From assembly GCA_026125665.1 (NCBI GenBank), contig JAHCKS010000035.1, forward strand, positions 1 through 47,632: a stretch of DNA of 47,632 bases. The letters are read 5' to 3'. The notes beneath the pieces are model-generated. The model was given only the letters and a program-made list of their open reading frames with translations, was not told where the DNA came from and ran no database searches. The stretch is from Rubrivivax sp. GTDB taxonomy: Bacteria; Pseudomonadota; Gammaproteobacteria; Burkholderiales; Burkholderiaceae_C. The number at the start of each line of letters is the position of its first letter. Within the stretch, counting starts at the first letter, position 1. Shown piece by piece: positions 6,583-47,632 of this stretch. A program made the position numbers and the translations under genes.

Positions 6583-8408
<1,826 letters not shown>

Positions 8409-39426: not shown

Positions 39427-39642
39427 ATGGCGCACACCACTCCCGAGCACAACCCGTTCATGCTGCTGGTGCACCCCGAAGCGGTGTTCGCGGCCATGGA
39501 GAAGTCCGAGCGCCTGGGGCGCCTGAACCGGCACCTGTGCCGGCCGCTCGATCGCCCGATGGGCGCACAGGCGACTCTGCTCGCGGCCTCCGAGGATGAA
39601 GCCGAGGACGAGACGACCGAGGAGGTCGTGCAGGCTCAGTAG
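39427..39642 (+). CDS. Small hypothetical protein (71 aa)
   Basis: ATG 39427 with GGAG 7 nt upstream opens a 71-aa frame starting MAHTTPEHNPFMLLVHPEAVFAAMEKSERLGRLNRHLCRPLD. It ends in an acidic Glu/Asp/Thr tail. The first 45 residues have balanced, non-biased composition, unlike shadow frames here, and the Shine-Dalgarno is good, so I take it as real. No domain or membrane segment was recognised. A candidate terminator follows at 39722. Confidence 0.7.
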   Translation: MAHTTPEHNPFMLLVHPEAVFAAMEKSERLGRLNRHLCRPLDRPMGAQATLLAASEDEAEDETTEEVVQAQ

Positions 39643-39664: not shown

Positions 39665-40099
39665 TCAGCTGTTTGGGACGGGTTTCTCAAGTTGATGCTT
39701 AGAAGTTGAAGGCGCTACCGGGGCCGCCATTGCGCGGCCTCTCTGTGTGATCGATATAGATGCACAATGTATATGCCGGTCGGTCCCCGAAGTGGGATGT
39801 TGCGCCACCGGCGCCCCGGCTGAGGGATTCGGCACGGGGTCGGGGCAGAAGCTGCTGCAGGTGAGGTTGCCCGAGTAGTCGGCGAAGCCGGGGAGGGCGA
39901 GCTGGCGGCCGTGGGCCATCAGCCGTTTGCCGATCTCGACGGCGACGGCCTCGGCGAAGTCCGGGCGGTTGATCTCGGCGTCTTCTGGTGCGGCGGCGCG
40001 GTAGGCGTCCTCGTCGCGGCAGGCCTTGTAGTAGGCTGCCAGGGCGTGCCGCAGGAGGTCATCGGCGGCGAGCCATCGGTAGGTGCTTTCGTGCTTCAT
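39665..40099 (-). CDS. Hypothetical protein reading out of the Xer-flanked element
   Basis: ATG 40099 opens a 144-aa frame beginning MKHESTYRWLAADDLLRHAL. Its first 90 residues (to about YSGNLTCSSFC) look like a genuine cytoplasmic protein with helical segments such as PDFAEAVAVEIGKRLMAHGRQ. The rest is Pro/Ser-rich and runs through the left dif-like site into flanking DNA. The 3' part may therefore have been created by integration. No family recognised. Confidence 0.5.
   Translation of the reverse strand: MKHESTYRWLAADDLLRHALAAYYKACRDEDAYRAAAPEDAEINRPDFAEAVAVEIGKRLMAHGRQLALPGFADYSGNLTCSSFCPDPVPNPSAGAPVAQHPTSGTDRHIHCASISITQRGRAMAAPVAPSTSKHQLEKPVPNS
39722..39749 (+). terminator. Candidate terminator after the 71-aa gene
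   Basis: GGCCGC (39722-39727) pairs with GCGGCC (39734-39739) around loop CATTGC, followed by TCTCTGTGT. The U-content of the tail is modest. It lies about 80 bp after the small gene and just before the left dif-like site. Confidence 0.4.
39757..39784 (+). other. Left dif-like site (candidate attL)
   Basis: The central hexamer TGTATA (39768-39773) is identical to that of dif. The 11-bp left (XerC-type) arm is TAGATGCACAA, ending in the conserved CA.AA pattern. The right arm TGCCGGTCGGT is poor against the XerD consensus TTATGTTAAAT (4 of 11). Eleven bases (ACAATGTATAT, 39764-39774) are identical to the right site. The pattern, good XerC half plus centre with a non-canonical XerD half, is what an attachment site left by a Xer-using element would look like. 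Confidence 0.5.
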
Positions 40100-40349
40100 C
40101 GGCGGGTCTTCCTTGGCAGGGGGGTGGCGGTGCAAGCTGAAGCGATTGCGGTGAAGGCGGCGCTGCCTGGGGGTCCAGCGGCGGCCGGGTGTTCCCGGTA
40201 GCGGACGGGGGTCAAGGGTTCGGCTGTCCGTCGCTCCGACCTGGCGGGCGCCGCGGCCGACTGTTCGGGCAATGGCGCGGCGTGGGGCACGACGTTGCAG
40301 CGGACGGCCGGGCCCTTGACGCCCGGTAGCGTCCTGACGCTGCTAGGCG

Positions 40350-40384
40350 ATGGGCTGGAAGCCGCATTTGGGCTTCCAGCCCAT
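40350..40384. repeat. Perfect 14-bp inverted repeat (hairpin)
   Basis: ATGGGCTGGAAGCC (40350-40363) is followed by a 7-nt loop and the exact reverse complement GGCTTCCAGCCCAT (40371-40384). There is no U-run on either side. It lies in the 624-bp stretch 40100-40723, where I see no convincing gene. Inside a possible filamentous-phage-like relic it could be a packaging signal or rolling-circle/complementary-strand origin hairpin; alternatively it is a bidirectional terminator. Confidence 0.7.
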
Positions 40385-40723
40385 GGCCGGCCTTGGCGTT
40401 GGTTGACCTGCCCGCCACCGTGCGGCTCGATGCGCGCGGCGGGCGGGTCGTCCAAACGGTGAACGAAGCCACGAGGAGCCGGCGGCCGAGGCGCGGGCCG
40501 AGCTCGCGAGGACCGGGGCTCGGCCGCCGGGTCCGGCGTTGCCGGTACCACCGCGACGGCTGCGCCCAGCGAGCGCGCGAGCTGGGCGAAGGCGTCGCAT
40601 CTTGCGTCCGTAGGCGGGGGCTCGCAGGGGTGGGCTTGTCTCACTACCAACAACGCCGAAACCGGCACCACGGTGACGCCACTATGATGCCACTCTGACA
40701 CGATACTTTCGGCGGGTGCGCTC

Positions 40724-41092
40724 ATGGCCACGACACTCCGACTTCCCGACCCGTTGAAGGCTGAGGCGCAGGAGTACGCGCAACGGCTGGGCCTATCGCT
40801 GAACGGCCTCCTGGCTGTGGCGCTGCGGGACTACCTGGATGCTCGAGCCCGGCCGGCGCGCTTCGAGAGCACGAAGAACCGGGAAGCGGCGGCGCAGGAG
40901 GTGGCGGCTGCGAGAGATCCGGCCAAAGCAGCGGATCAGGCTCGATTGCAGGCCAGTCATGAGCAGGTGCAGGCCTGGAAGCGGCCGCCAGTTGGTGGCC
41001 CGCGGATGCCGGTGTCCCTGCGGAAGTGGTCAGCAGTGGCGGCGCTGCCATGGAGCGGCACCGCTGGCGCCGGATGCCCGGTTTGCGCCTGA
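40724..41092 (+). CDS. Ribbon-helix-helix DNA-binding protein
   Basis: This is a 122-aa frame beginning MATTLRLPDPLKAEAQEYAQ, then RLGLSLNGLLAVALRDYLDAR, a clear ribbon-helix-helix (CopG/Arc-like) fold of about 45 residues. It is followed by a helical Ala/Glu/Arg-rich segment to about residue 90. The last 30 residues overlap the convergent HTH gene by 136 bp and look non-native, so the 3' end may be altered. It is probably a small transcriptional repressor or plasmid/phage copy-control protein. No toxin partner is adjacent. Confidence 0.65.
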   Translation: MATTLRLPDPLKAEAQEYAQRLGLSLNGLLAVALRDYLDARARPARFESTKNREAAAQEVAAARDPAKAADQARLQASHEQVQAWKRPPVGGPRMPVSLRKWSAVAALPWSGTAGAGCPVCA

Positions 41093-41418
41093 AGGAGACG
41101 AGTAGCCAGCACAGCGTTGTCGCGCCGCAGCTGCTCGCGTTCCTCGCTGAGGGCGCGGGCCAGCTGCACCGCTAACACGGCGTCGTTGGTCGCCTGAGCG
41201 TCGATCTCGGAGCGGCCCCACCGCGTCAGCCAGAACAGGGCCAGGCAGGCGATGCGGGGGCCACCGCCGGCCGCGCCCCAGCGGTAGACGGTGGAGCGGC
41301 CCACCCCGAGGGTGCGGGCGATGCGGTGCGCGGGCGGGCGGCCGAGGTCGTGCAGGATGGCGTCCCATACCGGGAGCACGCGCGGCGCGCGATCGATGGT
41401 GAACAGCTGCGGCACCAC
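40957..41418 (-). CDS. Phage-type helix-turn-helix protein (DUF3653-like)
   Basis: This frame encodes about 153 aa from GTG 41418, with further in-frame GTGs at 41415 and 41379. The core VWDAILHDLGRPPAHRIARTLGVGRSTVYRWGAAG is an HTH, followed by ACLALFWLTRWGRSEIDAQATNDAVLAVQLARAL and a coiled-coil-like SEEREQLRRDNAVLATRLLQ. This resembles small regulatory proteins of filamentous phages and related elements in Burkholderiales and Xanthomonads (from memory, not searched). GTG 41418 lies inside the element, 31 bp from the right dif-like site; the ATG at 41577 lies outside it and is less likely. Confidence 0.6.
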   Translation of the reverse strand: MVPQLFTIDRAPRVLPVWDAILHDLGRPPAHRIARTLGVGRSTVYRWGAAGGGPRIACLALFWLTRWGRSEIDAQATNDAVLAVQLARALSEEREQLRRDNAVLATRLLQAQTGHPAPAVPLHGSAATADHFRRDTGIRGPPTGGRFQACTCS

Positions 41419-41448
41419 CGGCTCAGCCCCCCCGCGTCCCACTCTTGG

Positions 41449-41476
41449 ACTGCCGACAATGTATATTATGTCAATT
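41449..41476 (+). other. Right dif-like site (chromosome dif or attR)
   Basis: The central hexamer TGTATA (41460-41465) is identical to E. coli dif. The right arm TTATGTCAATT matches the XerD arm TTATGTTAAAT at 9 of 11 positions, and the left arm ACTGCCGACAA matches GGTGCGCATAA at 6 of 11. That is 21 of 28 in total. The site stands out as an AT-rich island in very GC-rich DNA. It could be the functional chromosome dif itself or the right junction of an element inserted there. Confidence 0.7.
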
Positions 41477-41849
41477 TTCAGACTGCAACACCTTCGTCGG
41501 TGCGCGAACGCGTTGGCCCTCCTCGAACAGGTCAGCGCCGTGCCATGAGGCCGACCCTGCCGTATGCGGCGGGGCATCTTGGTGGGTCACCCGAGCGCGC
41601 CGCGTTGGTCGAGGCGGCGCTCGCGCCGGCGGGGGGCACGACTATCAGCAACTGTTTTCGCGGATCGTCAACATGCATCGCGGGCTCCTTCCCTTCTTCA
41701 GGGGTGTCCACGAAAGCGGATCGACTCCAACTCAAGGTCCACCGCCACATCGCGATCGCGTCGCGGCGCGTGGACAGGCGCCCCGCGGCCGCGCGGTGCT
41801 GGCTGACACTGACGAGGCGCTCGACCGAGTGACCGCTGCGCAACCACGC
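41477..41849. other. Gene-poor stretch next to the dif-like site
   Basis: In these 373 bp I see several short overlapping open frames on both strands but none with a recognisable domain, good start signal or convincing composition. It may be decayed coding sequence. Confidence 0.4.
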
Positions 41850-43598
41850 CTACTCGCAGGGCTGCACCCGAAGCGACCGAGGACAAGACCGCTCGGGTGG
41901 GCGCTCCGTCAGCCTACTGGCCCGCGCCACGCCCTGGTACGTGGTGAAGTAAAGCGTGGACCCGTGGAACGCAAGCCTTCGCGGCTTGGAGATCACGCCC
42001 GGCAGCGGGCCGGCGATGAAGCCCTCACGGCCCGCGATGCCGATCACGGTGGATACCACGCCCGCCGGTGTGATCTTGCGGATGGTGTGATTGCCGGAGT
42101 CGGCTACGTATACGTTGCCCTCGCTGTCGACGGCTAGGTCCCAGGGCCCATTGAATCTGGCCTGCCCCCGGGTGCCATCCTCGCTGCCGGCCTCGCCTGG
42201 GCTGCCGGCCAGCGTGCTCACCCGGCCGTCCGGCATGATCTTGCGCACGGTGTGGTGGCCGGTGTCGGCCACGTACACGTTCCCCGCAGCGTCCGCAGCG
42301 AGGCCTCGCGGATGGTCGAAGCGCGCCAGCGCCGCCGGCCCGTCGGTGTTCGGTCCCGCCGAGGCCGTGCCGGCGAGCGTCGTGACCACCGCGGCCGGCG
42401 TGATCTTGCGCACCGCGCTGAACGAGTCGGTGACGTACAGGTTGTCCGCGGAATCAATGGCCAAGCCGTTAGGGCCTGTGAACCGAGCTTCGGCGCCGAC
42501 GCCGTCTGCGTCGCCTTGACGCTGGTCGGAACCAGCGAAGGTCGTGACGGCGCCGCTCGGGTCGATGCGGCGGATAACGTGGCGCTGGTTGTCGGCCACG
42601 AACACATTGCCCGCCCGGTCGACGACCAAGTCGCCGGGCCAGAGGGCTTGGCCGGTCGTTCCAAGGAGCGGCACCGCGGTGATGCGTTTGCCGTCGATGC
42701 GACAGAGCGTGGCGGGCTGCACCGCGCCGGTGACGTAGAGCGCCCCCGCCGCGTCGTTTGCCACCGCCCACGGGGTGCAGTCCGTCGATGCCGAGATGAG
42801 CGGCTGGACACCGTCGCTTGCGGCCGTCCCGACGAAAGGCTCCACCGCCCCACCGGGCCGGATGCGATAGATCACGTCACCGCGGCCAAGCTCGCGCAGG
42901 CTGTTGCCGGCGGTGGCGTACAGCGTTCCCTTGCTGTCGATCGCCAAGTCAATGACCCCGCCCACGCGGGCATAAGTGCTGACCACGCCGTGCGGCGTGA
43001 TCTTGCGCACCGCATCGTTATAGTGATCCGGCACGTAGATGTTGCCCTCACGGTCAACGGCCAAGCGCCGCGAGGGGCAGAACCAGATGGTTCGCGTCGG
43101 ACTGACCTCCACTTGGCAGAAGTGGAACATCGCCGACGGGGCCGGCCCGTCGGCGTAACCTTGGCTGCTTCCGGCGAACACGCTGACGGTGCCGGCCGGA
43201 TCGATGCGCAGGACGCGATTGCCGTGTACCTGGAGCTCGTACCTGTTGCCGGCGCCATCGCTCCCCCAATCGAGCAGCGTCGGCGTGCGATCGACAGTGC
43301 TGACGTCGGCGTCCGGCGTGATCATGCGGATGCCTTGGCCGGCATCGCCCACGTAGAGGTTGGCGTCGGTGCCAATGGCAATCCAGGCCAGGAGGTTGAA
43401 GCGCGCGACAGCAGCAGGACCGTCCACGTTACCGCCCCCGGCTACGTTGCCGATGAGTAGCGCCAGCGGCGGCCCGTCCAACCCCCCTGGCGGCACCTCC
43501 TGGTCCACCGGCATCGGCGATCCGCCGCCGCACGCGCACAGCAACCACACTACACCCAGCGCCGCCAGCCAACATCTCCTCGCTCGGGGCCTTTGCAT
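41850..43598 (-). CDS. NHL-repeat lipoprotein
   Basis: This is a 582-aa predicted lipoprotein. ATG 43598 has GAGGAG 5 nt upstream and gives MQRPRARRCWLAALGVVWLLCACGGGSP, a signal peptide with lipobox Cys. The frame is open further upstream (to 43811) without signal features. About eight NHL-type beta-propeller repeats follow, with units such as LAVDREGNIYVPD...NDAVRKITPHGVVST and LAADAAGNVYVADTGHHTVRKIMPDGRVSTLAGS. These are probably propeller blades exposed at the outer membrane or periplasm for ligand or protein binding. The gene is intact although its neighbours on the right are pseudogenes. Confidence 0.9.
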   Translation of the reverse strand: MQRPRARRCWLAALGVVWLLCACGGGSPMPVDQEVPPGGLDGPPLALLIGNVAGGGNVDGPAAVARFNLLAWIAIGTDANLYVGDAGQGIRMITPDADVSTVDRTPTLLDWGSDGAGNRYELQVHGNRVLRIDPAGTVSVFAGSSQGYADGPAPSAMFHFCQVEVSPTRTIWFCPSRRLAVDREGNIYVPDHYNDAVRKITPHGVVSTYARVGGVIDLAIDSKGTLYATAGNSLRELGRGDVIYRIRPGGAVEPFVGTAASDGVQPLISASTDCTPWAVANDAAGALYVTGAVQPATLCRIDGKRITAVPLLGTTGQALWPGDLVVDRAGNVFVADNQRHVIRRIDPSGAVTTFAGSDQRQGDADGVGAEARFTGPNGLAIDSADNLYVTDSFSAVRKITPAAVVTTLAGTASAGPNTDGPAALARFDHPRGLAADAAGNVYVADTGHHTVRKIMPDGRVSTLAGSPGEAGSEDGTRGQARFNGPWDLAVDSEGNVYVADSGNHTIRKITPAGVVSTVIGIAGREGFIAGPLPGVISKPRRLAFHGSTLYFTTYQGVARASRLTERPPERSCPRSLRVQPCE

Positions 43599-43736
43599 CC
43601 TGCTCCTCACGTGCACGCGCTTCTTCTCGCCAGTTGCATTCTTCGCGTCTGGCTCCGCGCCGGGGTTGCGCGTCGTCAAGGTGAGCAGTTGCTCGGCCAT
43701 GAACCGACCAGTTCCCCGGGTTTCCCGCTCTCCCAG

Positions 43737-44012
43737 GCCGCCAGGATCGACATGCTGGACGTGGGCTGCAAGGGCTCGACGCCGGCGCTGCAGGATCTGA
43801 TCGGTGGCCACGTGCCGCTGACGTTCGACGGCATGGCCGCCTCGGTGCCGCTGATCCAGGGTGGCAAGATGGAAGCTTACGCGGTGAGCACGCCGCGCTG
43901 GCCGGTGCTGGCCGCCGCCGTGCCGACCTGGGCTACCCGCAGCTCGCGGCGGTGGCCTGGATGGGCCTTTGGGCCAAGCCAGAGACCTACGCGCCAGTAG
44001 GTGTCATCACGA
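43737..44012 (+). pseudogene. Bug/TctC-type tripartite tricarboxylate receptor fragment
   Basis: One frame reads QAARIDMLDVGCKGSTPALQ, then DLIGGHVPLTFDGMAASVPLIQGGKMEAYAVST, the mid-to-C-terminal part of a Bug-family (TctC) solute receptor. Near 43915 the reading frame shifts. The adjacent frame continues LGYPQLAAVAWMGLWAKPETYAPVG to about 44010. There is no N-terminus or signal peptide and the C-terminus is lost. It is a broken fragment of a roughly 320-aa periplasmic carboxylate-binding protein. It abuts the DUF1329 remnant on the opposite strand. Confidence 0.8.
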
Positions 44013-44262
44013 GCCTTGGCCGGGTTCCAGAACGGGTATGCCCGCGTGCCAACGCCGTTGGTGGCCAGCGTCGCGCGCCCGCTCGCTCCACCCTCAGGTT
44101 GCAGTACTTGGCCTCGTAGGCCTGGCCGTCGAAGCGCACGAGGTGGTTCCACATCGCCTCGTAGCCGGTCTTCGCAACGGGAACATGCGCGCCTTCGATC
44201 GAGCGCCCGTTGTTCAACGTCTTGGCGAAGTCGCGAAGGCCCGCCATGCCGTTGGCCTGGCA
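43985..44262 (-). pseudogene. DUF1329 (outer-membrane-associated) protein remnant
   Basis: One frame gives FAKTLNNGRSIEGAHVPVAK then TGYEAMWNHLVRFDGQAYEAKY. A shifted frame continues RATLATNGVGTRAYPFWNPAKARDDTYWR. This is the mid part of a DUF1329 protein, a family commonly encoded next to DUF1302 proteins. Both ends are missing and at least one frameshift is present (near 44095). Confidence 0.65.
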
Positions 44263-44694
44263 CGGCGCGAAGCCCACCGCGTTGAACACGTTGGCGCAGC
44301 TTCTCACCTTCGACCAGCGGGCCGCGATGATCTCGGCAAACCAGTTCGCCGCGCCGCGAACACTGGCGCGCGAACGACCGAGCCGAGCGCGTTGACGAGC
44401 ACGTGCCACGTGTCGCAGCGCGAGCCGTTCGTCTCGCCCTGCACCGGGATGCCGGGCGCGACGCCGAGCACCTGGCTGTTCAGCGGCGCTTTCTCGCGCC
44501 GCGAGATTTCCGCGCGCGGATGCTGACGCCACCGACGTTCTTCGCGAAGCTCAGGCCGTAGAGCTAGATCAGGCACACGGTGTTGTCGAGGCGGACCACG
44601 ACATCGGGAATGCCCGTCGGGAACTCGAATGCGTGGCTGGTGCCCGCCGCGGCCATGCCGGCGAGCGCGGCTGCAATGGTGCTGCGCCGGCATG
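44263..44694 (-). pseudogene. DUF1302 protein remnant
   Basis: At 44694 an ATG is followed one base out of frame by RRSTIAAALAGMAAAGTSHAFEFPTG and IPDVVVRLDNTV, the signal peptide and N-terminus of a DUF1302 protein. An in-frame stop follows (44564). Another frame then gives LYGLSFAKNVGGVSI and SQVLGVAPGIPVQGETNGSRCDTWHVLVNALG, and a further frame gives WSKVRSCANVFNAVGFAPCQ. The gene is thus internally deleted and multiply frameshifted. The DUF1302-then-DUF1329 order matches the usual intact gene pair. Confidence 0.7.
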
Positions 44695-44750
44695 ACGTAG
44701 TCGGCTCCGGCGTTGGGGCCGCCGGCACGGCAGGCGCCAGACGCGGGGAT

Positions 44751-47632
44751 TCAGGCCGGATGGGCTTCCGCAGCGAGCGCGGCCTCGAGGTCGCCCTCGG
44801 CCAGCGCCGCCTTCGCCTTCGCGAACAAGGCAGCGTCCTGCACCAGCCGCATGAACGGCTTGGCTGAACCCGGCGGGCCGACGATGAGGCCGCCGGCCAG
44901 TCCGCCATTGCGCACCACGAAGCGCCACCAGGCTTCGCCGCCCGCGGCTTGCAGGACCTCGTCACCGGCCGCCGGCTCGACGACGCCGAAGCTGCGCACG
45001 TCGATGCCGTCGCACTTGAGCTGCACGATCTGGCGGCTGGGCGGCATGACCCCCGTTTCGCCGAAGATGCTTTCCACGACGACGGCAGCCTGTGCGGCGC
45101 CGATCGGCCACAGCCCTCGCGCCGACCCCGCCAGCTCGGCACAGTCACCGGCCGCGAGGATGTTCGCGTCGCTCGTGCGCATCTGCGCGTCGACGAGGAT
45201 GCCGCCCTTGCCCACTGTCAGGCCCGCCGTCTCGGCCAGGTGCACGTTGGGCTGGATGCCGAGGCACGCGACGAAGAGGTCGGCGCGCACGCGCGGGCCG
45301 TGCGCCAGCCAGGCGGCGGCGATCTCCGGCGTGCCGTCGTAGCGCGTGACCTGCACGCCGGTGACCACCTGCACGCCGATGCTCTCCAGGTAGTTCGCCA
45401 GCACCTCGGCGCCGCGCGCGTCCAGCTGCGCGTTCATCAGCCGGTCGGCGCGGTGCAGCAGCGCCACGCGCAGGTCGAGCTTGTGCAGCGCGTCGGCGGC
45501 TTCGACCCCGAGCACGCCCCCGCCCACCACCACGGCGCGCCGGGCGCGCGTCGCACGCACGTACTCGCGGATCGATTCGGCGTCCTCGGCCGTGCGCAGC
45601 ACGAAGGCGTTGGGGTGCTCCATGAACGCCGCGTCGGGCAGGCTGGCGCGCGCGCCCGTCGTCAACACGAGCCGGTCATAGGGCAGCCACTCGCCACCGG
45701 TCAGGCCCAGCCGGCGCTGCTCGCGGTCGATGCGCACGGCCACGCGCCCGTGCAGCACCTGGATGCCGTTGGACTGCGCCCAGTCCTCGGGCACGAGATG
45801 CAGCGCGTCCATGCCCTCGGGGTCGTAGACGAGGCGCCCGATGCCCATGCGGTTGTAGAAGCGGTGCGGCTCGTTCGCGACGAGCGTGACGTGCAGCCGC
45901 GGGCTGCCGCGCCGCAGGCCCTCGGCGACGCTCATGCCGGCGACGCCGTTGCCGACGATGACGACGCGCTGGATGCCCACCGCCTGCGCCCGGTCGTGCC
46001 GCGCCGCGGCCGCGATCGTGGCCGGGTCGGCGCGCGGCTTGGCCGATCGCGCGTCGCGGTCGATCGTCACCGGCCCGCTCACCACGCACATGCAGGCCAG
46101 GCGCACGGTGCCGTCCAGCCCCATTCGGCGCAGCGTCGCGCGCTCGTCGGCGGCCATCGGCGAGAGGTGCTCGGCACCTTCGCAGACGGCCACCGCGTCG
46201 GCCCCGCACACCCCGGCGCGGCAGCCGTAGTTGACCTTCAGGCCGGCCTTCTCGATGGCTTCGAGCAGCGTGCCGTCGCTGGCTGCCTGGAAGGTGATGC
46301 CGGTCTCGCGGTCGGTGACCTCGGCTGCGTCGCTGGCCGCCAGCCGGTCCTTCAGGCTGCGGCCGCCGCCGAAGCGCGACTTGCCGTCGCTCGCCTCGGC
46401 CACCGGGCGGGCCGCGGCCTGCGCCTTCGCCGCCTTGGCGGCCGCCGACGCGCGCAAGTAGCGCCGCTCGGACCGCAGCCCCGCGGCCGTCAGGCCGACG
46501 GCCAGCGCCAGCCCGATGCCCTGTGCCATGCCGGACAGCCATGCCGGTGCCGGCAGCCCCAGCAGGGCCGCCGCGCTGGCGACGATCACCGGCCCGGCGA
46601 AGAAGTAGAAGATCGTGATCGCGGCGGCACCGAAGGCCAGCGAGACGCGGTACGGATTGCCCGGGGCGAAAGCCACCGCGAGCCCGTAGACACCGGCGGA
46701 GCCCGCGGCGGCCGCGAGCAACAGCCCGAAGCCTGCCGCCGTGCCCTGCACCCCCAGCGGGGCGGCCAGGAAGTAGCCGAGCAGCAGCCCCGGCAGCAGG
46801 CCCATGAAGAGGCGCCGCTGCGCGGCGTAGCGCGCGTCGTCGTCGTAGACGTCGCTGAAGACGGCGGCGCGCGGGTTGAAGTCGTAGCAGTTCTTCTGGC
46901 AGCCCAGGCAGGGCTCGCAATAGCCGTTGCGCACCAGCACCAGCGGCGCCTGCCCGTAGGTGCGCTGGATCGGCCCGAGCGGACAGAAGGTGCCGCACCA
47001 TCCGCTGCGGCCCTTGTACAGCCAGCCGCCGACGAAGGCCGCCACGAGCAGCACGAGCACCAGCACACCGACCGAGGGCCCGTGCTGGTTGAGCCACGGC
47101 TGGCGCAGCGCCACCGCGCCGATGAAGAGGGCCAGCGCCACCGTGAACGCGGCGTCCCTCGCCGCCGGCGGCAGGTCGGCGCCGCGGCTGCGGTTGACCG
47201 CCCGCGGCAGCTGGTTCAGCGCCGCCATCGGGCACACCTGCCGCCACAGGCCCGGCGCGATGACGAGCAGCGCCGGCACGACCGGGATCACGAGCCCCCA
47301 GAAGAGCAGCAGCCCGAGCTCGGGCAGCACGAGCAGCGTCGCGGCCAAGCCCAGCGCCGCCACGAGCGATGCCGCCCTCAGCGTCACCCAGAGCCACCCC
47401 GGACCCTGCGGCGACAGCTGCGTGTAGTTGCGGAAGTGCTGCGCCGCGGCCTCGGCCAGCCGGGCTTCGTGCGCTTCGCGGGCCGCCTGGCGGGCTGCCT
47501 CACGAGCGGGGTCGCGCGGTGCATCGCGGGAGCCACCGCGAGGGGCGTCGCGGAGCACCGTGTCGCCCCGCCCGCCGCGGACGATCGTGCCGCCGCCGGC
47601 GCTTTCGGCCCGGGCACCCGGCGCTGGCGTGC
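44751..47632 (-). CDS. Multidomain membrane Fe-S / 2Fe-2S ferredoxin / FAD-NAD(P)H oxidoreductase (5' partial)
   Basis: From GTG 47558 the product is 935 aa, but the frame stays open to the right edge, so the N-terminus is probably outside. Numbering from 47558, paired membrane helices lie at about 54-104, then a CPMAALNQLPR motif, helices at about 136-153 and 163-181, and WCGTFCPLGP (187-196). CEPCLGCQKNC (214-224) is a 4Fe-4S site of NosR/NapH type. More helices follow to about 365, then a plant-type 2Fe-2S domain (about 425-515). A pyridine nucleotide-disulfide reductase module completes it, with FAD site VVIVGNGVAGMS, NAD site VVVGGGVLGVEAADAL and ILAAGDCAEL. It probably passes electrons from NAD(P)H to membrane centres or the reverse; the partner is unknown. 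Confidence 0.88.
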   Translation of the reverse strand, partial: TPAPGARAESAGGGTIVRGGRGDTVLRDAPRGGSRDAPRDPAREAARQAAREAHEARLAEAAAQHFRNYTQLSPQGPGWLWVTLRAASLVAALGLAATLLVLPELGLLLFWGLVIPVVPALLVIAPGLWRQVCPMAALNQLPRAVNRSRGADLPPAARDAAFTVALALFIGAVALRQPWLNQHGPSVGVLVLVLLVAAFVGGWLYKGRSGWCGTFCPLGPIQRTYGQAPLVLVRNGYCEPCLGCQKNCYDFNPRAAVFSDVYDDDARYAAQRRLFMGLLPGLLLGYFLAAPLGVQGTAAGFGLLLAAAAGSAGVYGLAVAFAPGNPYRVSLAFGAAAITIFYFFAGPVIVASAAALLGLPAPAWLSGMAQGIGLALAVGLTAAGLRSERRYLRASAAAKAAKAQAAARPVAEASDGKSRFGGGRSLKDRLAASDAAEVTDRETGITFQAASDGTLLEAIEKAGLKVNYGCRAGVCGADAVAVCEGAEHLSPMAADERATLRRMGLDGTVRLACMCVVSGPVTIDRDARSAKPRADPATIAAAARHDRAQAVGIQRVVIVGNGVAGMSVAEGLRRGSPRLHVTLVANEPHRFYNRMGIGRLVYDPEGMDALHLVPEDWAQSNGIQVLHGRVAVRIDREQRRLGLTGGEWLPYDRLVLTTGARASLPDAAFMEHPNAFVLRTAEDAESIREYVRATRARRAVVVGGGVLGVEAADALHKLDLRVALLHRADRLMNAQLDARGAEVLANYLESIGVQVVTGVQVTRYDGTPEIAAAWLAHGPRVRADLFVACLGIQPNVHLAETAGLTVGKGGILVDAQMRTSDANILAAGDCAELAGSARGLWPIGAAQAAVVVESIFGETGVMPPSRQIVQLKCDGIDVRSFGVVEPAAGDEVLQAAGGEAWWRFVVRNGGLAGGLIVGPPGSAKPFMRLVQDAALFAKAKAALAEGDLEAALAAEAHPA

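Follow-up and report, generated by a model that had tools for sequence, protein, structure and literature searches.

What is a 1.7-kb segment of DNA doing between two copies of a chromosome dimer resolution site? This question is raised by a 47,632-nucleotide stretch of a Rubrivivax sp. genome (contig JAHCKS010000035.1; hereafter the window, its genome being G000 and compared genomes bearing other G numbers), in which two directly repeated dif-like sites enclose such a segment. An earlier note, made from the letters of the window, had proposed an element that exploits the Xer recombinases. We argue that the segment is a 1692-bp integrative mobile element exploiting Xer (IMEX), inserted in the chromosomal dif by the XerC and XerD of its host, and that it is a satellite of filamentous phages lacking a replication initiator gene (rep), in other words a natural phagemid. 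We put the probability of this reading at roughly two in three.

The right site agrees with the dif of Escherichia coli at 21 of 28 positions, and at 9 of 11 within the XerD arm, just as had been counted before. The left site shares with it the TGTATA centre and the 11-mer ACAATGTATAT, and has a degenerate XerD arm that is unlike any dif; the positions of both sites and their spacing of 1692 bp were reproduced. With up to 1 mismatch, the shared 11-mer occurs in the window at positions 39764 and 41456 only, and its maximum count over 100 shuffles was 0. An overly strict dif pattern returned no matches, and a relaxed pattern was used instead. In the genome-wide search that the earlier note had proposed as a check, the right site was the only dif-like site of its own genome at up to 3 mismatches (the assembly, 88.6% complete in 268 contigs, sets the scope of all searches in this genome). 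Sites of the same form were present in 44 of 61 genomes (up to 2 mismatches), twice in two of them. A left-type half-site together with a dif was found in 6 other genomes, and a half-site without dif in G096.

Which of the two sites stands where the host dif should be was addressed by fetching and comparing the dif regions of 20 relatives. In this genus, dif usually follows a small host gene, which tblastn matched in 18 of the 20; it precedes dif in 17, lies on the opposite strand in 1, and had no match in 2. From its stop to dif there are 11-230 bp in 10 relatives, 578-881 bp in 6, and 3669 bp in 1, and the order tatD, ankyrin-type open reading frame (ORF), small gene, dif is widely conserved. 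On a tree of three proteins, the genome closest to that of the window is G012 (81% identity over 723 columns), which lacks the 1.7 kb and has a single dif 122 bp past the stop of the small gene. By the same measure, the window has 127 bp to the left half-site and about 1.8 kb to the right site. The left site thus occupies the expected position of dif, 1.7 kb ahead of the full dif, indicating that the 1692-bp element sits in dif. A second pair of an empty and an occupied site is formed by G024, in which the element is absent at dif, beside the carrier G062. As a separate observation, 7 of the 20 relatives have 0.58-0.88 kb (3.7 kb in L039) between the small gene and dif (loci L036, L039, L041, L043, L044, L047, and L050).

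By position, the left XerC arm TAGATGCACAA would be that of the host and the left XerD arm TGCCGGTCGGT that of the element, while the right XerC arm ACTGCCGACAA would have come with the element. The attachment site of the circular form would then read ACTGCCGACAA-TGTATA-TGCCGGTCGGT, a pattern with counterparts in other elements. With gaps allowed, the left flank can be aligned weakly (E 2.6) to G012 (ATTGATA--GATG-ACAATGTATAT versus ATCGATATAGATGCACAATGTATAT).

A homologous element at dif was found in JAHBZT010000002.1 (metagenome-assembled genome of Rubrivivax sp. isolate ACE_PRO12, taken as G078), in the layout small gene, left half-site, element, full dif, with a spacing of 1589 bp. Together, the empty site of G012, this homologue, and the position of the half-site bear out the proposal of a Xer-exploiting element at dif. 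A profile search with the helix-turn-helix (HTH) protein encoded in the element gave 11 matches among 81 same-genus genomes, 7 of which (window included) adjoin a dif-like site, and an eighth, in G096, accompanies a left half-site with no right dif. Five of these eight are short forms (G000, 1692 bp; G078, 1589 bp; G062, 1521 bp; G095, 1186 bp; and G096); the remaining three comprise an element of 6.96 kb in G065, a region resembling an inovirus in G066, and a case of unassigned type in G067. Short elements in other genera occur in G536 (1467 bp), G578 (1422 bp), G677 (1397 bp), and G703, bringing the total to 9 genomes of 5 genera, with both ends found in 7 of the 9, 1186-1692 bp apart. On a host tree of three neighboring proteins from 25 genomes, the five same-genus carriers require at least 4 changes, and a single clade was rejected (approximately unbiased test, p-AU 4.15e-06).

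In the wider family, the HTH profile matched 36 of 399 genomes at 46 places. Among 29 loci outside the own genome (one per genome), a dif-like site, allowing up to 3 mismatches over 14 fixed positions, was present in 23. Distances were measured at 28 of the 29 loci, and in the 22 of these with a site the dif centre lies 46-219 bp before the HTH start codon. In many genera of Burkholderiales, genes of this HTH family adjoin dif on the XerC or the XerD side (L090-L118, L119-L130), and in G536, G642, and G511 they do so on both sides. Two loci had a more particular arrangement. In G065 (L078, G065:C25, 54-7014), a 6.96-kb phage-like element with an endolysin, a GDSL-type hydrolase, and an HTH gene at dif has a full dif at one end and, at the other, a half-site whose XerD arm is intact and whose XerC arm is degenerate; this is the mirror-image integration type, and the element is perhaps a tailless small phage. 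In L120 (G578), a fragment of a second HTH gene at 6833-6976 lies just outside the left half-site, as if two elements had been inserted in tandem and the outer one had decayed.

The link to filamentous phages comes from a 20-bp motif inside the element, CTTGTCTCANTACCAACAAC (40635-40654). With up to 2 mismatches it occurs once each in 5 of the 81 same-genus genomes, always within the element, and these are exactly the five carriers of the short form; the reversed pattern was found in 0 of 81. At up to 1 mismatch among 399 genomes of the order, it was found in the own genome only. The strict motif matched 0 viral contigs of IMG/VR, and a relaxed form occurs exactly in 9. In 7 of these 9, it lies at the start of a match to the rep of G642, and all 7 have a Zot-type ATPase match; the other two, L137 and L139, had neither a rep nor a Zot match and were judged coincidences. 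The query itself, the G642 rep, is a REP_ORF2-G2P protein (PF23343; PHROG 2969, replication initiation). Among 399 genomes of the family, the relaxed motif (up to 1 mismatch) occurs at 9 places in 8 genomes, compared with 2 for the reversed control, and 6 of the 8 places outside the own genome are at a rep match, one being the query genome G642 itself; L146 and L147, without a rep match, were again judged coincidences. Locus L131 of G642 has an inovirus flanked by a half-site (11192) and dif (17344). This inovirus comprises a single-stranded DNA-binding protein, the motif, rep, a Zot-family ATPase, and a TspB-like protein, and relatives of the HTH gene are found on both sides of the dif that flanks it.

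Within the short elements, the motif lies upstream of a ribbon-helix-helix (RHH) gene in G000, G078, G062, and G578 (with 4 mismatches in G578). At the same place, G536, G677, and G703, of three other genera, have a second motif, CTAAATTTATTNCTAGGACA or nearly so. Its longer form matched 0 contigs of IMG/VR and a relaxed form 5. One of these, the 6030-bp inovirus contig L154, has the motif about 100-120 bp upstream of a PF23343/PHROG-3419 rep, along with Zot-type ATPase matches, while L155-L158 (31-34% G+C, no rep or Zot match) were set aside as coincidences. On another contig, G703 has an inovirus-like region with coat-like and attachment-type ORFs (identified by eye) and a Zot-type ATPase match. 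There, the second motif is present at 3 mismatches of 28 fixed positions (best background values were 11-15 mismatches in 135 of 141 three-kb stretches), and an ORF with a PF23343 match over cut-off follows 0.3 kb past it. The same motif type therefore coexists in an element and an inovirus-like region of one genome, the only one in which a helper-like region of the matching type was found. We read the shared motifs as putative origins. In addition, serine-recombinase-like ORFs (by eye) were seen in inovirus-like stretches with the second motif type (L154, 3658-4263; L159, 9195-9851), which suggests that possible helpers may not integrate through Xer.

We then asked what the element encodes (Table 1). 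Fifteen ORFs in or reaching into it, all of at least 77 aa, were scanned against Pfam and PHROGs. Among these, no match was found to an integrase, a recombinase domain, a replication initiator, or a coat protein, nor to a Zot/pI-type ATPase. The element thus has the hallmarks of an IMEX, i.e., integration at dif, hybrid junctions, and empty dif sites in relatives, with no integrase of its own among the 15 ORFs. Among the same ORFs there was no match to the ATPase, coat, and rep genes that would mark an inovirus, nor to an initiator of its own as in RS1 or TLCphi. What it does have is the combination expected of a satellite: no structural genes among the ORFs scanned, and motifs shared with inoviruses as putative cis signals common to a helper.

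Table 1. Coordinates of the element, its junctions, and neighboring features in the window.
Feature	Position	Strand	Remarks
Right site, resident dif	41449-41476	+	XerC arm ACTGCCGACAA, centre TGTATA, XerD arm TTATGTCAATT of genus type
Left hybrid site (attL)	39757-39784	+	XerC arm TAGATGCACAA, centre TGTATA, degenerate XerD arm TGCCGGTCGGT
CTTGTCTCACTACCAACAAC, putative rolling-circle origin, filamentous-phage type	40635-40654	+	20 bp, upstream of RHH gene
HTH DNA-binding protein gene	40957-41418	-	GTG start; HTH_23/HTH_7 below Pfam cut-offs
RHH protein gene	40724-41092	+	Weak PHROG matches; called RHH from its relatives
ORF A	39665-40099	-	Leaves element through left site into host DNA; relatives in G078, G062, G096
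Hairpin	40350-40384		Perfect 14-bp arms
Host small gene, usual left neighbor of dif in genus	39427-39642	+	Outside element; 72 codons including stop; tblastn

The HTH gene starts 42 bp from the dif centre on its XerC side, directed away from dif, and 46-48 bp from it in G536, G578, G677, and G703. Its product gave sub-threshold matches only, including HTH_7 (the resolvase HTH) and a weak PHROG excisionase/regulator, and a Pfam scan of 11 members of the HTH family returned generic HTH and other weak matches (best 25 of 41 families). Compared with G078, differences at codon positions 1/2/3 number 11/13/35, which clearly indicates constraint at the level of the protein. No phage record was found for it, nor any relative in the viral contigs searched. 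XafT, a Xer activation factor, was considered as a possible identity; the first 10 of 48 entries of a literature search on it included nothing relevant. On the strand of the gene, dif reads TTGACATAATATACAT upstream of it (41418-41476), AT-rich within DNA of about 70% G+C. This sequence is promoter-like, and insertion at dif may supply the promoter of the regulator.

For the RHH ORF of the window, the best PHROG match was "partition protein ATPase" (4.7e-05), followed by an Arc-like repressor (0.0012). Its relatives have RHH/HicB-type and SEC-C matches in one frame, with SEC-C near or over cut-off, and in G078 and G062 the RHH ORF ends in the SEC-C motif. Of the two regulatory genes noted earlier, the HTH gene is well supported, while the RHH gene is weak in the window and stands through its relatives. 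The perfect hairpin had also been seen before and was confirmed (DNA-folding z-score -5.15 for 40340-40395); it is a candidate packaging signal or terminator.

From these features we propose how the element could persist and move. Its circular form would join a good XerC arm and the dif centre to an XerD arm of no use, so that strand exchange by the host XerC would insert it, in the manner of VGJphi. With XerD and FtsK unable to act at the left site, the element would be retained and the right site would still serve as dif; excision would be made rare by the damage to one XerD arm, an effect that has been discussed for LME-1 and the gonococcal genetic island (GGI). A co-infecting filamentous phage would provide Rep in trans, which would nick the origin of the element and yield single strands, to be coated and exported by the helper. 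As the element has an inovirus-type origin and no rep, replication by the Rep of a helper and packaging in its coat would be the simplest life cycle. Control of integration or of helper expression is the probable role of the HTH protein, whose gene lies at the attachment site. More broadly, natural phagemids of 1.2-1.7 kb without rep, integrase, or coat could possibly be the smallest Xer-integrating satellites, each bearing one of two exchangeable origins that matches the Rep type of the local helper, with the HTH start placed beside dif so that insertion sets the expression of the regulator and its control over the helper. This wider proposal is tentative, and we rate its chances a little short of even.

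Several observations weigh against the phagemid interpretation. The circle, the virion, and the replication, nicking, and mobility of the element are all predictions from sequence. At the junctions, the XerC arm of G012, aligned without gaps, matches the left arm of the window in 4 of 11 positions and the right arm in 7 of 11; when the XerC arm of G024 is compared with those of G062, the figures are 10 of 11 for the left and 11 of 11 for the right. Arms alone are therefore ambiguous as to which XerC arm is that of the host, and the case is carried by position; the idea that the left XerC arm and the right XerD arm would together rebuild the host dif accordingly holds by position against G012 and is left ambiguous by the arm sequences. 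G096 lacks a right dif, and no half-site was found in G703. Gene content is uneven, with an RHH match in 7 of 9 short elements (none in G095 and G096) and ORF A in 4. In G536, G677, and G703, the RHH-origin unit points the same way as the HTH gene, the inverse of its orientation in the others. In the window, the SEC-C match (about 41013-41054, over cut-off) is in another frame than RHH, which suggests that this RHH copy is frameshifted, broken, or misassembled. As a gene, ORF A is weakly supported, being without codon-position bias; the hairpin is not conserved, and the predicted structure of the HTH protein is of low confidence (mean predicted local distance difference test 62.7, predicted template modeling score 0.32).

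The same holds for the distribution and the helper. HTH relatives are not at dif in G103, G024, and G026; 6 of the 29 family loci have no dif-like site, and two further HTH contigs of G703 have none nearby. Others are on small rep-bearing plasmids of Comamonas and Polaromonas. In the viral contigs, the rep match begins 0-54 bp ahead of the motif, so that the motif is possibly coding there. Of the 9 element genomes, one (G703) has a PF23343 rep over cut-off and another (G536) a match below it; none was found in the 5 of 5 same-genus carriers searched, own genome included. Finally, shuffled labels on the host tree need a similar number of changes (mean 4.7; 153 of 500 as low), which describes an element with a scattered distribution and not one passed down as a block; losses as well as gains may account for this scatter.

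How far do other explanations accommodate the same data? The closest competitor is a decayed filamentous prophage, integrated at dif by XerC and later deleted for rep, coat, and export genes, with the HTH end, the origin, and the junctions left. It would fit the HTH relatives that lie by dif beside inovirus genes in G642 and G066, the origin common to the element and inoviruses, the RHH frameshift, and the five same-genus carriers without a PF23343 rep. However, elements of the same size class, with HTH at dif and RHH behind the origin motif, recur across 5 genera (the RHH-origin unit being inverted in three), the HTH gene is under constraint, the origin type is swapped at one place, and the carriers are scattered on the genus tree. 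No RHH match was found in G642 or in the IMG/VR contigs with the relaxed first motif, so that the RHH-SEC-C protein seems specific to the short form. We therefore regard decay as an unlikely origin of these elements, though a possible one for the window copy in particular.

An IMEX that moves otherwise, as a short circle carried by transformation or on a plasmid, with the motif serving as the binding site of another protein, is considerably less probable. The plasmid-borne HTH relatives would suit it, as would the lack of a PF23343 match in the five same-genus carriers. Yet the three small Comamonas and Polaromonas plasmids have neither dif-like sites nor the origin motif (best 7-9 mismatches of 21), and the motif is tied to the start of a rep match in the 7 of 9 IMG/VR contigs that also have the Zot-type match. 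Mere chance, with a left site that is AT-rich by coincidence and ordinary chromosome making up the 1.7 kb, could draw on a left XerD arm dissimilar to every dif and a left XerC arm that resembles that of the sister only with gaps. Set against this are the absence of the 11-mer from all 100 shuffles, the place of the left site at the dif position of the sister, and the like layout in 6 other genomes. Given the sister position, the layout of G078, and the shuffles, we take this explanation as refuted, its probability being close to nil.

Insertion in dif places the element at the point where chromosome dimers are resolved, and the surroundings agree with this. FtsK-orienting polar sequences (KOPS), counted with the consensus GGGNAGGG, number 8 (+) and 2 (-) to the left of dif in the window, with none to the right. 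Four of the 20 fetched relatives had flanks too short to be used; summed over the other 16, the counts are 52 (+) and 9 (-) on the left side and 4 (+) and 37 (-) on the right. Such a flip in polarity supports dif as the point of convergence, at the terminus, where the earlier note had placed the window. GC skew, which it had suggested plotting, was taken over 20-kb stretches of the relatives and is higher on the left than on the right in 9 of 16. Two Xer-type recombinases were identified in the own genome: a XerD that passes the curated cut-off and another, perhaps XerC, that falls short of it with 237 bits. On the right side of dif, the counterpart in G012 of the gene at 44800-47473 starts about 107 bp past dif, so that the 3.3 kb of the window from 41477 to about 44750 is likewise absent from G012. 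This stretch (41477-44750) contains an NHL-repeat protein and a DUF1329-like fragment, with no second dif-like site found in it; relatives of the NHL-repeat protein were partial and scattered and did not explain the right side.

If the phagemid reading is correct, filamentous phages of Burkholderiales have very small rep-less satellites. The origin of a satellite would reveal its helper, so that helper-satellite pairs could be predicted from sequence. Elements that code for HTH proteins would be seen to land repeatedly at dif in this bacterial family, and the short elements would offer a simple system for how Xer elements persist without harming dimer resolution. Xer-integrating phages and satellites at dif are already known; a short rep-less dif family with exchangeable phage-type origins was undescribed in open-access PMC titles and abstracts, among the matches listed.

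Among known dif-integrated elements, LME-1 of Legionella and GGI are larger than the window element. According to passages of one account, one dif is intact in each of them, and the other site is altered in a way that hinders excision (PMC9765430). The window element shares this arrangement of one intact and one altered site. LME-1 and GGI are otherwise different elements, and those passages mention no filamentous-phage origin for them (PMC9765430).

RS1 and TLCphi of Vibrio cholerae are, like the window element, related to filamentous phages that integrate at dif. RS1 carries its own rep, whereas no rep match was found in the window element. TLCphi, as described in part of a published account, has no morphogenesis or structural genes, has its own replication module, and recombines with XerD acting first (PMC4246890). 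The window element is similar in that its scanned ORFs gave no match to structural genes, but differs in its lack of a rep match and in its arms, which fit XerC. The same passages describe VGJphi as a 7.5-kb filamentous phage with a single dif-like attachment site, whose double-stranded form integrates at dif reversibly and under the lead of XerC (PMC4246890). The predicted attachment site of the window element fits this type, with a good XerC arm, a compatible centre, and a degenerate and seemingly unusable XerD side, in an element of 1.7 kb without rep or coat match instead of a 7.5-kb phage.

A final parallel is offered by XacF1, one of the XacF1/Cf filamentous phages of Xanthomonas, a 7.3-kb phage whose attachment site lies within a regulator gene, ORF12, which stabilizes integration (PMC5666396). 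The 1.7-kb window element is much smaller than XacF1; like that phage, it places genes at the site of recombination, with the HTH gene starting beside dif and ORF A crossing the left site. ORF12 of XacF1 may thus serve as a model for the HTH protein, with which it is compared in position and possible role.

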